From Aquisphaera giovannonii (GTDB taxonomy: Bacteria > Planctomycetota > Planctomycetia > Isosphaerales > Isosphaeraceae): 64,000 nt of DNA. Under the pieces are notes generated by a model. The model was not told where the DNA came from. It ran no database searches and saw only the letters and a list, made by a program, of their open reading frames with translations. Below are positions 25,495 to 31,699 of this stretch, one piece after another (positions within the stretch are counted from its first letter, which is position 1; the number at the start of each line of letters is the position of its first letter). The position numbers and the translations under genes are program-made. Location of the stretch: positions 2,790,001 to 2,854,000 of the forward strand of contig NZ_CP042997.1 in assembly GCF_008087625.1 (NCBI RefSeq). The letters run 5' to 3'.

Positions 25495-26379
25495 ATGGAG
25501 ACGGGGACGATGATCACGCGGGGCGGGGCGCGATTCGCGCCGGCCTGGTTCGTCGCGGCCTTGCTGGGGGTTCTCGACCTCGGCGCATCGTCCGCTTCCG
25601 CGCAGGACGGCCCGGAACTCGAGGCGCCGATCGTGCCAGCTCCTCCGGGCACGAGACAGCCGGCGGCGGAGCCCCCAGCGTCGCCCGCGACGCCCGGCGA
25701 TCCTCCCGCGGCTCCTTCCACGTCGTCCGATGCCCATCCGCTGCCGCTGATCCCGGGCGTCACGGCGCCCCTTCCGCCGAGGCCGGAAGGGCGGACCTCA
25801 CGGCCGCAGCGCGAGGCGTCACGGGAGACGCCGGCCCCGGCCCCGGAGCTTACCGGCCCGGCGAGACCTCCGGCCCCCACCGCGGGTCCGGGCCCGATCT
25901 CCTTATCGTTGGAACCGATCGACGACGCGGAGGCGGAGCGACTCCTCAAGCAGGGAGCCTTCGCCAAGGACCGGCCCGCCCGCCCCGCCGCCGACCGGAA
26001 GCCTCGTCCGGATCCCGCGAAGCCCCCCGGCGAGCCGAGCCCGGGCACCGCCGAGCCGCCGATCCGGAGCGGGGGACTGCTCGGCCGCTTCCTGGCCCCA
26101 CCCGCCGGGAGAGAGCGAGGACGCGCTGCCGAGAGCTCGATCACGGTCGAGCCCCTTTCGGATCCGGCCACGGAGACCGCCCTGAAGAGGCGCCTCGAAA
26201 AGCAGATCCAGCAGGAGCTCGGCGATCGGGTGACCTCGGCGGAGGTGCGCGTCGCCGGCCGCGTCGTCTCGATTCGCGTCCGGGTCTCCCGCTTCTGGCT
26301 GCGGCGGGGAGTGCGACGGTCGCTGGAATCCTTCCATGTCCCGCCGGGCTACCGCGTCCGCGTCGATTCGGTCGAGTGA
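25495..26379 (+). CDS. secreted Pro-rich protein with small C-terminal domain
   Basis: 294 residues. A signal peptide (F-V-A-A-L-L-G-V-L-D-L-G ... A-S-A-Q-D) is followed by roughly 190 residues dominated by Pro, Ala, Gly and Arg, certainly disordered. The last 70 residues form a compact-looking alpha/beta unit: K-R-R-L-E-K-Q-I-Q-Q-E-L then V-R-V-A-G-R-V-V-S-I-R-V-R-V, resembling a single BON-type fold in layout (inference). ATG at 25495 or 25510 can start it. No neighbour is clearly linked. Confidence 0.6.
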   Translation: METGTMITRGGARFAPAWFVAALLGVLDLGASSASAQDGPELEAPIVPAPPGTRQPAAEPPASPATPGDPPAAPSTSSDAHPLPLIPGVTAPLPPRPEGRTSRPQREASRETPAPAPELTGPARPPAPTAGPGPISLSLEPIDDAEAERLLKQGAFAKDRPARPAADRKPRPDPAKPPGEPSPGTAEPPIRSGGLLGRFLAPPAGRERGRAAESSITVEPLSDPATETALKRRLEKQIQQELGDRVTSAEVRVAGRVVSIRVRVSRFWLRRGVRRSLESFHVPPGYRVRVDSVE

Positions 26380-26673
26380 CCGATGGCGGATGCGTTTTTG
26401 CCCGAGATGATCCGGCAGCACCCTCCGGCGATGCATCTCCATCTACGATGCGAATAACAATGCATCCGCCGGTCGATCTGCGAATTCAGGGGCGAGCGAG
26501 CGGGTCACGGAACGAGGACGGCAACCCGGTGGCCGTCCTCAGGATGGCAGTCCGAAGAGTCGCCGGTTTCGTCGGCTCGTGTTCCGCGACCCGCGCGGGG
26601 CCGATAGACTGTTGGATCGTTTGCGGCGATACGCCGAGCGGATCCCGACGTCCCGGCCACGGACTGCTACGAA
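26380..26673. other. intergenic region with inverted repeats
   Basis: 294 bases without a gene. GGCGGATGC (26385-26393) is matched by GCATCCGCC (26462-26470), and a stronger hairpin lies at 26514-26540. A promoter for the ATPase gene should lie here but is not recognisable. Confidence 0.4.
26514..26540. terminator. 9-bp perfect hairpin between Pro-rich protein and ATPase genes
   Basis: GAGGACGGC (26514-26522) pairs perfectly with GCCGTCCTC (26532-26540) across a 9-base loop. No T-tract follows, so it may be a terminator of the upstream transcript or a leader structure of the ATPase mRNA. Confidence 0.4.
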
Positions 26674-27642
26674 ATGGAAACCGCGAAGAAGATCGTGGAG
26701 ATCGACGGAGTGGCCCTGCACCTGGGCGACCCGGACGTGACGGACCAGGGATGGATCGGCCAGGACGAGGTCCTCCGCCAACTCCTCGCCTGCTGGCTGG
26801 TCGTCGATCCGCGCGACCGCGCCCTGTCGCCCAGGATCGTCGGGCCGCCGGGGATCGGCAAGACGACCCTGGCGATGGCCGCGGCCCGCACGCGCGAGCA
26901 GCGGCTCTACATCACGCAGTGCACGGCCGATACCCGGCCGGAGGACCTGATCGTCACCCCCGTGCTGGCCGAGAGCGGCCGGATCGCCTACCATGCGTCC
27001 CCGCTGGTCTCCGCGATGATCGTCGGGGGCGTGTGCGTCCTCGACGAAGGCAATCGGATGAACGAGAAGTCGTGGGCCAGCCTCGCCCCGCTCCTGGATC
27101 ACCGCCGCTATGTCGAGAGCATCGTCGCCGGGATCACCATCCGCGCCCATGACGATTTCCGCGTGTGCGTGACGATGAATGAGGACGAGTCCACTTACGA
27201 GGTCCCCGACTACATCCTGTCGAGGCTCCAGCCAACCCTCGCACTCGGCTTCCCCAGCCGGGATGACGAGATGGCGATCCTCGAGTATCACCTGCCCTTC
27301 GCCGAAAGCGATCTGCTGGCCATCACGGTGGACTTCCTCCAGCAGGCCCATGAGCTGAAGCTGGACTTCTCCCCCCGCGATGGCATCAGCATCATCCGTT
27401 ACGCTCTCAAGCGGATGGCCCAGGATCCGACCCATCCTCTCGGTCGCGACGCCGCCTGGCGCGAGGCGCTGGAACGGGTGCTGGGCGACGAGGCCGTGGA
27501 CCTGGAGAGCCTCGCCCGCCGCAAGCGCAGATCACACGGGGGCTCCCACGCCCCCCTGGGCCTGGGAGACCTCTTCTTCGACCCATCCGACCCGCTCCAC
27601 CCCGACGGCCCCGGCGAGACGACCGACGACGAGGAATTCTAG
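26674..27642 (+). CDS. MoxR-like AAA ATPase (AAA_5)
   Basis: 322 residues. Walker A is [11 protein letters not shown] (about residues 56-66), Walker [11 protein letters not shown], and sensor-type segments include V-T-M-N-E-D and S-R-L-Q-P. The D-E-G-N-R-M and [10 protein letters not shown] stretches place it in the CbbQ/NorQ/MoxR group of chaperone-like ATPases that remodel or activate partner proteins, often with a VWA protein. No VWA gene is next to it; the nearest genes are the STAS-FHA-STAS and 627-residue proteins. It ends in a His/Gly/Asp-rich tail. No clear ribosome site. Confidence 0.85.
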
Positions 27643-27674
27643 CCCGCGCTCCGTCGAAGGGAGGGCAGACCGGA

Positions 27675-29282
27675 TCAGGGCCGGGCCGTGGCCCGCTCCT
27701 CGACGCCCGACCAGGCGCAGAGCACGGCCTCGTCCACCGTCGGGAAACAATCGACGAGCATGGTCAGCCGGACCTGGTCCAGGAGGGCGATGATCCGGGC
27801 GTGGGCCTGGCAGATCCGCAGACCGCCGCCTTCCCATTCCAGGCGGACGTGGTGGGCCAGCAGGAAGGCGATCGCCTTCCGGGAAAGGTGATTGACGAAT
27901 TCGAGGTTCACGACCACGCGACGAGCCCCGGGCTCTTCCCGCAGCGACTCGAGCCTCGTCCGCAAGGCCTCGATGGCTTCCTCGCCGTCCAGGTCCGGGA
28001 ACAGGGGGGTGACCACGGTCACCCCGTCGAAGTCCTCGGTCCTGATACGCAACGTCCCGTCCGCGTCGTCGGCGACCGGCATCTCCTCGGTGGGGAGCGG
28101 CTCATTGCCCGCGGGTAGGCTGTGCGGGTGAGCCGTGGCCTGGCGGGCCTCCGGGTGAGCGCCGATCACGACAGTCGCCGGATCCTCCGGCAAGGGTTCC
28201 GAGGAGTGAGAACGGTCGATCGCGACACGGAAGCGGACCGGGCCGATCCGGAACTCGTCCCCGTGGCGTAGCTCGATTTCGGCATCCCGGAGCACCTTGC
28301 CGTTCACGAGCGTGCCGTTGGTGCTCTCTAGGTCTCGCACGAAGATGCGGTCGTCGCGAATCTCGATGGCTGCGTGCTGCTTGCTGACCTGGGCGGAGTT
28401 CAGTCGGATCTTGCACGAACGGTCCCGGCCGATGAGCCAGCGAGGGTGCGTGACCGCGAGCGACCGGCCGTCGCCCGAGTCGGCCGTGAGCTCCAGGCGT
28501 ACGGAGAAGCCCCGGATATTGTTTGGGCGGGCGGGTGCCTTCCCGTCCGCGTCGGGAGGGGGCATGGGCTCGTCGGCCTGGCTCGGAGCTCCGCCGCAGA
28601 TCGGGGGCACCGGCGCGACCGAGCGGAGTGCCTCGAGCAGGTCCACGGGCAGCTGCCTGGGGGCCGAGCAGGCCGGCCAGGGGCTCGAGATCGCCGCGGC
28701 CTCGTCCGGATGCAACTCCAGTTCACGGGCCATGCCGACGATCGCGAAGATCTCGGCGAGCTGGGGATCCAGGCCGCAGATCTTCAGCCTCCCGCCATCG
28801 GCCTCGGCACAGCGGCGATGGGCGTTGCCGACGACGCCGATGATCCAGCTCCCCAGCTTCTCCACGCCGCTGAAGTTGAGGACCATGCGATGATTGCCGA
28901 CGGCGATGAGGTCCATCAGGTCGGCCTCCAGCTCCCGGAGGAGGGAGCGCTGCACGAGCGACTGATCCGCGACGCGTACCATCGTGTAGCCTCGACGGTA
29001 AGCGACGCGGAAATGAGACCATCCGCCCTGGGAGTCCGTGGCCGGCCCAAGGGCAGCACCGCCCTTGCCGTTGGTCCTTGCCCGCGGCCGGAATGCGGGC
29101 AGATTCTTGATCAGTCGGTTCCAGTGGTTCTCCCTGGCCGGGTCGGCCTCCTGGTCCAGGTTCGAGGCGATCCACTCCTCGAGCCTGCGATCGCGGGAGG
29201 GTGCCATCGGCCCGGGACGGAGCAGCGTGGCCGTCGTCTCCAGGCGGCCGATCAGGGGGATCTCCTGTTCTTCGGCGAACAT
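27675..29282 (-). CDS. STAS-FHA-STAS signalling protein
   Basis: 535 residues with no membrane helix. Residues about 92-197 form a STAS-like domain (V-L-N-F-S-G-V-E-K-L-G-S-W-I-I-G at the usual phospho-site region). Residues about 258-353 are an FHA domain with the conserved L-I-G-R, S-K-Q-H and S-T-N-G-T phosphothreonine-binding elements. Residues about 410-523 form a second STAS-like domain (V-V-V-N-L-E-F-V-N-H-L-S-R-K-A). FHA would dock on a phosphorylated protein while STAS domains act as anti-sigma-antagonist-like switches; this combination is unusual. It is convergent with the MoxR-like gene and divergent from the 627-residue protein. Confidence 0.8.
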   Translation of the reverse strand: MFAEEQEIPLIGRLETTATLLRPGPMAPSRDRRLEEWIASNLDQEADPARENHWNRLIKNLPAFRPRARTNGKGGAALGPATDSQGGWSHFRVAYRRGYTMVRVADQSLVQRSLLRELEADLMDLIAVGNHRMVLNFSGVEKLGSWIIGVVGNAHRRCAEADGGRLKICGLDPQLAEIFAIVGMARELELHPDEAAAISSPWPACSAPRQLPVDLLEALRSVAPVPPICGGAPSQADEPMPPPDADGKAPARPNNIRGFSVRLELTADSGDGRSLAVTHPRWLIGRDRSCKIRLNSAQVSKQHAAIEIRDDRIFVRDLESTNGTLVNGKVLRDAEIELRHGDEFRIGPVRFRVAIDRSHSSEPLPEDPATVVIGAHPEARQATAHPHSLPAGNEPLPTEEMPVADDADGTLRIRTEDFDGVTVVTPLFPDLDGEEAIEALRTRLESLREEPGARRVVVNLEFVNHLSRKAIAFLLAHHVRLEWEGGGLRICQAHARIIALLDQVRLTMLVDCFPTVDEAVLCAWSGVEERATARP

Positions 29283-29815
29283 CGATCTCGTCTCCCATCG
29301 ACCTCGGGAATGATCGGGAAGATCCGCTCATGTGATATTGCGTACGCTCGGCAATCCGACCCGCGCGGCGGTACGACCTCGCAGCGAGGGCCATGCGGAT
29401 TCGTCGTCGTGCCCGGACGGACGGATCGTCGGGGCAAACATCGCGGCCAAGGCTGCTGCGCGAGCGCAGGCCGCGAACGTGGAATGGGGATAGCTGGCGA
29501 GGCTGAGAATCGCGAGGGCGGGCAGGAGAGGGCTCCCCGACTTTCATCGGAGCACCTGCCCGCCCTCGTCGATTCCCGTGACTGATGTAGGCGATATCCG
29601 GAAGAGGTCGGTCCCGAATTCCAGAAAAAAGCGGTCCGCCCTTTCGGGCCTCATCCGGGATCTTTGGCCCTGGAGGCTTTGCACCCTGGAAGGGACCATG
29701 AAGAGGGGCGTCCCGGCCGCACGCGTGTCCGGAATGGCGGCCGACGTCGTCGGCCGATAGACTGGCCCCTCGGTCGGTCGCCACGAGACGGTTCCCGTGC
29801 GGTGGGGAGGTTGAT
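29283..29815. other. 533-base divergent intergenic region
   Basis: No convincing gene. A 60-codon frame (29578-29760) lacks a ribosome site and has no family resemblance. The notable content is a long inverted repeat at 29507-29575, listed separately. Promoters for both flanking genes must lie here. A GGGGAGG ribosome site at its right edge fixes the start of the next gene. Confidence 0.5.
29507..29575. repeat. long inverted repeat, 20-bp stem with one bulge
   Basis: 29507-29526 (GAATCGCGAGGGCGGGCAGG) pairs with 29555-29575 except for one unpaired T at 29569; the loop is 28 bases. It sits between two divergent genes, where a terminator is not expected. It could be a regulatory site, a small structured RNA or a remnant repeat. 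Confidence 0.6.
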
Positions 29816-31699
29816 ATGGGCAGCCCGGACTCGAGCGCCGATGGTTTCCTGTCGATCGGGCCCCGGATCCGCGTCCTGCCGATCATCCACGGCTCGGGGG
29901 ACTTCGCCATCCGGGTCCGGGACGAGCTGCTGGAGAGGCCCTACGATTGCCTGGCGGTCCCCCTTCCGCCTTCCTTCCAGGACGAGGTCGAGCGTGCCGT
30001 CGAGGCGCTGCCGACCCCCTCCGTCGTCGTCCAGCCCGATGCCGACGGCGAGGAAGGTGAGCCGAGCTACAGCTTCGTGCCGATCGATCCGTGCCAGGGG
30101 GTGATCGCCGGGCTCCGCACGGCCCTCGGCGAGCGGATTGCGCGGGAGTTCATCGACCTGGAGACCCCCTCGTTCGAGTCGATCGCCGCCTCGTTCCCGG
30201 ACCCGTACGCGCTCAAGCGGGTGTCCCCGGAGAAGTTCGCGGCGGCCGTGCTGCCGGCCATCCCGCCGCCGCAGGGGGCGCAGCACCGGGCTCGACTCGC
30301 GTGGATGGGGGCGAGGCTTCGCGAGATCGAGTCGCGCCGCCGCCTGACCCTCCTCGTCTGCTCGCTGCTGGACTGGCCTTGGATCCGGGACGCGTATCGC
30401 TCGAGGATAGCCCCACCCGAGCCGGAGCCGTTCTTCGCCCCGATCCGCACCCATCGGGTCGATTCGAGGTCGCTGCTCTTCCTCCTCGGCGAGCTTCCCT
30501 TCATCACGGGCCTCTACGAGCGCGGCCGTCGCGAGCTGACCGCGGACGACAACCTCTCGGTGGACGGGGTGAAGGAGCTGATGCTCGAGGCCAGGGAGCG
30601 GCTCCGCCTCGAACGGCCCGACGTGGCCCAGCGGATCACGCCGCAGCTGCTCTCGGTCGCGTTCCGTTACATCCGCAACCTGTCCCTCTTGGAGCGGCGT
30701 CTCACGCCCGATCTCTACACGCTGATCGTCGCGGCCAGGCAGACGGCCGGCGATGATTATGCCCTCGCGCTCGCGGAGACGGCCCGGCAATACCTGGCGC
30801 CGGTCCCTTCAGACGAAGGCCTCACTCCGGAGTTCGACGAGGATCGGCCTCTCCGGATGGGCGTCCACCGGGCCGACGTCCCCGGCTGCGGCCCGGCGAG
30901 GATGACGAGTCGCCTGCCGGGCCAGGCGATCTCGTGGCGGACGTGCAAGCTCCGGCCGAAGCCGAGTCCTCCGGAGCAGCGGCGCTGGAAGCAGAGATGG
31001 GACCCGTTCGGCATGTGCTCGTGGCCCCCCGAGGACGACCGGATCGAGGGGTTCCATCGCCACGTCCGGGACCAGGCCTGCGCCATCCTCGGCGCCGACC
31101 TGGCACGCGTGGAGAAGTTCACGACCAGCGTCCGCGACGGGATCGATATCCGGGAGACGCTCCGCAACTGGCACAAGGGCGAGCTGTATGTCCGGGTCGT
31201 CCCGCCGAGCCGAGGGTCGATCGAGGCCGTGGTCTTCCTTTTCGACGTCCCCGCCGATCCCGACGTGTACACCCACAGGGCGACCTGGTTCGCCGAGCAT
31301 TCGGAGGAATCGACGCTCGCCTTCTACGCAACCGATCCGATGAAGGACCTGGTCGGCCCGGGGATCGCTCGGGCGAAGTACGGCGGGGCCCTCTTCCTCT
31401 TCCCGCCGCGACCGATTCCCGAGATATGGACGGATCCTCAACTGGAATCCGCCGCCACGCCCGAGGAACGATTGCTGGCCGCGGCCTTCCTCCACAGCCG
31501 GGACCGCCACGTCGCCGTCGTCTCGCCGGCCCCGCCGCTCGGCAATTGGAGGCGGATGGCGCGGGCATCCGGCCGGAAGATCGTCCACCTGCCGCTCAAG
31601 AGGTTCGGCGGCCAGATGCTGGATCGCCTGCGGACGTTCCACGTCCTCAACGGCAAGCAGGTCCGCTCCTACGCGGCGGATTACATCCGAGACGCCTGA
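29816..31699 (+). CDS. uncharacterised 627-residue protein
   Basis: Start fixed by GGAGG 5 bases upstream. No signal peptide or membrane helix. The N-terminal half opens V-L-P-I-I-H-G-S-G-D-F and continues with D-C-L-A-V-P-L-P-P-S-F and R-E-F-I-D-L-E, a layout that reminds me of TraB/ChaN/EreA-like folds and DUF5682-type proteins (His early, acidic strand end later); this is low-confidence inference. The C-terminal half starts near P-G-C-G-P-A-R-M and has an unassigned alpha/beta domain with W/C-rich segments. Its last 19 bases overlap the convergent neighbour. It is separated from the MoxR-like gene only by the STAS-FHA-STAS gene. Confidence 0.6.
   Translation: MGSPDSSADGFLSIGPRIRVLPIIHGSGDFAIRVRDELLERPYDCLAVPLPPSFQDEVERAVEALPTPSVVVQPDADGEEGEPSYSFVPIDPCQGVIAGLRTALGERIAREFIDLETPSFESIAASFPDPYALKRVSPEKFAAAVLPAIPPPQGAQHRARLAWMGARLREIESRRRLTLLVCSLLDWPWIRDAYRSRIAPPEPEPFFAPIRTHRVDSRSLLFLLGELPFITGLYERGRRELTADDNLSVDGVKELMLEARERLRLERPDVAQRITPQLLSVAFRYIRNLSLLERRLTPDLYTLIVAARQTAGDDYALALAETARQYLAPVPSDEGLTPEFDEDRPLRMGVHRADVPGCGPARMTSRLPGQAISWRTCKLRPKPSPPEQRRWKQRWDPFGMCSWPPEDDRIEGFHRHVRDQACAILGADLARVEKFTTSVRDGIDIRETLRNWHKGELYVRVVPPSRGSIEAVVFLFDVPADPDVYTHRATWFAEHSEESTLAFYATDPMKDLVGPGIARAKYGGALFLFPPRPIPEIWTDPQLESAATPEERLLAAAFLHSRDRHVAVVSPAPPLGNWRRMARASGRKIVHLPLKRFGGQMLDRLRTFHVLNGKQVRSYAADYIRDA

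Follow-up and report, generated by a model that had tools for sequence, protein, structure and literature searches.

Locus and domain architecture

The window is a stretch of 64,000 nucleotides from the 10.5 Mb genome assembly of the planctomycete Aquisphaera giovannonii. On its reverse strand, an open reading frame with exact bounds (from the ATG at 29282 to a stop codon whose last base is 27675) encodes a protein of 535 residues with an FHA domain between two STAS domains, STAS1 and STAS2. The gene, its features and its two neighbours are as follows.

27675-29282 (−): STAS-FHA-STAS protein, 535 aa; exact ORF, Pfam matches and full-length orthologues
29154-29189 (−): N-terminal motif RRLEEWIASNLD (residues 32-43), conserved; Trp37 invariant in 23/23 homologues
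28677-29027 (−): STAS1 (residues ~86-202); 36.0 bits in Pfam when scanned alone; aligns with SpoIIAA and RsbS
28848-28850 (−): Ser145 of STAS1, aligned with RsbS Ser59 and SpoIIAA Ser57
28242-28439 (−): FHA core (residues 282-347); 74 bits in Pfam; pocket residues invariant
28089-28091 (−): Thr398 (P-T-E-E-M), between FHA and STAS2; candidate phospho-Thr that the FHA domain might bind in cis; motif enrichment
27711-28055 (−): STAS2 (residues ~410-524); 33.8 bits in Pfam when scanned alone; aligns with SpoIIAA
27876-27878 (−): Lys469 of STAS2, at the SpoIIAA Ser58 position in the alignment
26674-27642 (+): MoxR/GvpN-type AAA ATPase, encoded convergently next to the gene; synteny limited to some Isosphaeraceae
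29816-31699 (+): conserved orphan protein, 627 aa, encoded divergently next to the gene; synteny limited to some Isosphaeraceae

The whole protein was scanned against Pfam with cut-offs of 22.6 bits for STAS and 20.7 bits for FHA. Residues 282-347 matched FHA with 74 bits, and two stretches matched STAS. Since each flank also exceeded the STAS cut-off when scanned alone (residues 85-205, 36.0 bits; residues 406-526, 33.8 bits), the assignment of both flanks stands, and the architecture proposed in an earlier note on this DNA is real. Both flanks were aligned with SpoIIAA by phmmer, STAS1 additionally with RsbS, and Pfam FHA and STAS were both matched in all 23 aligned homologues. The product is a soluble signalling protein that combines known domains in a new way; a literature search for FHA-STAS proteins returned no paper. 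The protein itself gave no match in PADLOC, and an Rfam scan of positions 26000-31000 of the window gave none either. Outside the domains, the most conserved part is the N-terminal Trp37 motif, which was modelled as a helix in a low-confidence structure model. The mean pLDDT was 42 for the whole protein and 51 for STAS2, and the predicted models were therefore too poor to give any interdomain geometry.

Candidate phosphorylation and binding residues

In the alignment of the 23 homologues, FHA residues G285, R286, R293, S300, H303, N322, G323 and T324 are invariant (23/23). The Arg, Ser, His and Asn conserved in the phospho-Thr pocket of FHA domains are present as R286, S300, H303 and N322. Because this site is intact, the domain is likely to read phosphothreonine, in agreement with the earlier note.

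The canonical phosphorylation site of SpoIIAA is Ser58 (PMC8256260), and RsbS is phosphorylated at Ser59 by RsbT in stressosomes (PMC6760441). The STAS1 motif reads L-G-S145-W146-I-I and the STAS2 motif L-S-R-K-A-I; neither domain has a phosphorylatable Ser in the place of SpoIIAA Ser58, where Trp146 and Lys469 are found. Of the 23 homologues, 22 have Ser at position 145; position 146 is Trp in 14, Gln in six and Leu, Ser and Ala in one each. The equivalent of position 58 in STAS2 is Arg, Lys, Gln or Ala in 22/22 homologues that have this domain, and never Ser or Thr. The phospho-Ser motifs had been described as altered, which is literally correct but incomplete, as Ser145 sits on RsbS Ser59. 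Nor is the alteration a special feature. As a control, Pfam finds 18 STAS domains in the genome, in which (motif positions read by eye) the first position is usually Ser, position 58 is Ser in only about three (loci L101, L108 and L113) and most of the others have Ala, Thr, Glu, Met, Trp, Phe or Lys there. Replacement at position 58 is thus ordinary in this genome and does not distinguish the protein. Ser145 is a possible phosphoacceptor of STAS1; as a Ser at this position is common in the STAS domains of the genome whatever follows it, its conservation may be structural.

The FHA-STAS2 linker is poorly conserved except for a Thr with a hydrophobic residue at +3, which relatives carry as PTENL, ETEDF, ATEEF, PTLTF, DTAVI or PTALL. 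Using about one linker per genus, T-x-x-[FILMV] was found in 14 of 16 genus-level representatives, with 7.5 expected from shuffled linkers and 14 reached in one of 2000 shuffles; these shuffles ignore relatedness, and the pattern was chosen post hoc after viewing the alignment. The Ser version of the pattern is not enriched (6 versus 7.2 expected), and the Asp version is mildly so, partly from a D-E-x-V-x-x-W-L segment. In the STAS1-FHA linker, used as a control, the Thr pattern shows no excess (2/14 versus 3.7 expected). Two of the 16 representatives are without the motif, and L062 carries its match where the linker begins instead of in the usual place. The linker motif is a lead, not a proof.

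Distribution, origin and gene neighbourhood

A profile was built from the 23 homologues and matches were accepted at E <= 1e-40. Within the Isosphaeraceae it matched in 29 of 45 genomes and 14 of 21 genera, mostly at full length; a few matches come from module variants or run off the end of a contig. The full-length relatives share 29-75% identity, and the relative in Aquisphaera insulae 71-75%. The gene is absent from 9 of 26 good-quality Isosphaeraceae genomes and is therefore dispensable to the family. Outside it, no full-length match was found in 390 Planctomycetota genomes (from a phylum sample of 392, with four candidates per genome scored); the best match there (E of 6.5e-35) covers mainly the FHA part. 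Within the sampled Planctomycetota genomes the architecture is restricted to the Isosphaeraceae, and the combination thus appears to be as uncommon as had been supposed.

The module variants are FHA-STAS (L061) and FHA-STAS-FHA-STAS (L059). Given the relatives and variants across 29 of the 45 Isosphaeraceae genomes, the architecture has been inherited by descent and is no isolated fusion. These two variants, together with a similar D-E-A..W end segment in both STAS domains, prompted us to consider a tandem duplication of an FHA-STAS module. It is unsupported: the STAS1 and STAS2 profiles score each other with medians of 41 and 39 bits, less than against the genome's stand-alone STAS proteins, where they reach 81 and 61 bits, and the tree, which is weakly resolved, does not join the two domains. 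An RsbS-like origin of STAS1 was also rejected, the STAS1 profile giving only 7.5 bits against the RsbS of the genome and about 80 bits against other stand-alone planctomycete STAS proteins. Next to an FHA-STAS-FHA-STAS gene lies a reverse transcriptase gene (L059:7677-8996, +; L060:11251-12597, −) that matches PADLOC RT_XIII, a retron type, with 540 bits; the neighbourhood also includes genes for a HEAT-repeat protein and a SWIM/WGR protein.

The ATPase gene and the orphan gene lie near the STAS-FHA-STAS gene in Aquisphaera and three further genera, in most of which RibF and a Ser/Thr kinase gene follow further on. The orphan (29816-31699, +) is 67-80% identical across several Isosphaeraceae genera and has no match in Pfam, NCBIfam, PADLOC or the PDB. 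Elsewhere in the family, in a distinct lineage (L058:6250-10764, scanned, and similarly L054, L055 and L056), the gene is co-directional with preceding pyrR-, pyrB- and pyrC-like genes and stands before yacP and sucCD; L058 shares clusters with L052 and L054-L056. Still other relatives have unrelated neighbours. None of the neighbours scanned, which were part of those in the window and in relatives, codes for an RsbW-like kinase, a phosphatase or a sigma factor, and no constantly linked kinase gene or other constant partner emerged from the compared neighbourhoods. Because the neighbours vary between lineages, they point to neither a particular partner nor a particular sigma factor. Of the suggested connection of Ser/Thr kinase signalling to a partner switch or sigma factor, the domain assignments and the intact FHA site hold, but no sigma-factor or RsbW-like gene was found among the scanned neighbours; control of a sigma factor is no more than possible.

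Pkinase is matched more than 150 times in the same genome, which also encodes SpoIIE phosphatases and HATPase_c_2 proteins. At L147:1851-5400 (+), a Ser/Thr kinase gene is directly followed by a gene for an FHA-GAF-SpoIIE phosphatase, so that FHA input to partner-switching modules does occur in this genome. At L148:4686-7381 (−) there is a stressosome-like cluster consisting of RsbRD_N-STAS, an RsbS-like STAS, an RsbT-like HATPase and a HATPase-SpoIIE fusion. This RsbR-RsbS-RsbT-type cluster sits elsewhere in the genome, away from the STAS-FHA-STAS gene.

Possible mechanism and comparison with known systems

Planctomycetes have very many Ser/Thr kinases, the outputs of which are mostly unknown. 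A conserved phospho-Thr reader joined to STAS would give these kinases a direct route to a partner switch. Judging from sequence, we tentatively favour a reading in which the protein would be a phospho-Thr-reading adaptor that gates the binding of STAS partners, possibly through a cis switch at Thr398. A Hanks-type Ser/Thr kinase, one of many in the genome, would phosphorylate either Thr398 or a Thr of a partner protein. The resulting phospho-Thr would be bound by the FHA domain, in cis, similarly to GarA/OdhI, or in trans, where it would serve for docking, and this binding would alter whether STAS2 is free for its partner. STAS2 would not be switchable by phosphorylation at position 58, and STAS1 with Ser145 may form a second, kinase-sensitive contact. 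The reading names concrete residues (Thr398, Arg286 and Ser145) for predictions with purified proteins.

The invariant FHA binding residues (23/23), the 22/22 STAS2 domains with neither Ser nor Thr at position 58, the Thr-specific enrichment in the FHA-STAS2 linker, seen neither for Ser nor in the other linker, the GarA/OdhI precedent (PMC8546545) and the kinase repertoire, with its kinase/FHA-GAF-SpoIIE gene pair, all argue for such an adaptor. Against it are the post hoc choice of the motif, shuffles that ignore relatedness, the two representatives without the motif and the one in which it is misplaced, the lack of a constantly linked kinase gene and the low confidence of the predicted structure (pLDDT 42/51). 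A constitutive scaffold, which we consider rather unlikely, would share the intact FHA pocket: the domain would dock in trans on an autophosphorylated kinase or another phosphoprotein, and both STAS domains would bind other STAS proteins or kinases whatever the phosphorylation state; the protein would have no switch of its own. The alteration of position 58 in both STAS domains suits this arrangement, as does the fact that the most conserved part outside the domains, the Trp37 motif, is not a phospho-site, but the Thr-specific linker motif is left unexplained. Improbable is a more specific form of the adaptor, a lineage-specific class in which a kinase would write the linker phospho-Thr, the protein's own FHA domain would read it and a conformational change would gate a STAS domain no longer controlled by Ser phosphorylation. 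If true, partner switching would be driven by phosphorylation of Thr instead of a STAS Ser.

Classical partner switching would instead have an RsbW/RsbT-type kinase phosphorylate Ser145 and a SpoIIE-type phosphatase reverse this, with a sigma factor or stressosome under control and the FHA domain only recruiting. The alignment of Ser145 (Ser in 22/23) with RsbS Ser59 points this way, and the genome holds an RsbR-RsbS-RsbT-type module, further HATPase_c_2 proteins and SpoIIE phosphatases. However, most STAS domains of the genome have a Ser there whatever follows, which may be structural, STAS1 is far closer to other stand-alone planctomycete STAS proteins than to the RsbS of the genome (~80 versus 7.5 bits) and no such kinase gene is adjacent; we judge this mechanism quite unlikely. 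Least probable by far is that the protein works locally with the products of its two flanking genes, the MoxR AAA ATPase and the 627-residue orphan: synteny of the trio extends over Aquisphaera and three further genera, but the genes do not all point the same way, and elsewhere the STAS-FHA-STAS gene is found without these neighbours, for example behind pyrR-pyrB-pyrC, so that linkage is lacking.

The favoured adaptor can be set beside several known systems. SpoIIAA and RsbV are stand-alone STAS proteins that act as anti-sigma factor antagonists; the STAS fold is shared by sequence, and both domains align with SpoIIAA, whereas here two STAS domains and an FHA domain form one chain, Trp (STAS1) or Lys (STAS2) replaces Ser58 and no RsbW-type gene is adjacent. 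STAS1 resembles RsbS in having Ser where RsbS has Ser59, with an aromatic residue and then Ile behind it (S-W-I versus S-F-I in RsbS), but profile similarity to the RsbS of the genome is negligible (7.5 bits), and neither a specific sequence relation to RsbS nor an RsbR/RsbT gene cluster was found at this locus. Compared with RsbR, the FHA domain takes the place of the sensory domain and there are two STAS domains per chain. The FHA-GAF-SpoIIE phosphatase of the same genome likewise has FHA fused to a partner-switching module, but its output is a phosphatase, not STAS. In OdhI/GarA, a phosphorylatable ETTSVF segment carries a Thr with Phe at +3, and the FHA domain docks kinases (PMC8546545). 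The protein described here likewise has an FHA domain, and its candidate Thr-x-x-hydrophobic motif (found post hoc) may be a counterpart of that flexible segment; the motif differs in lying C-terminal to the FHA domain and before STAS2, with the STAS domains as additional parts.
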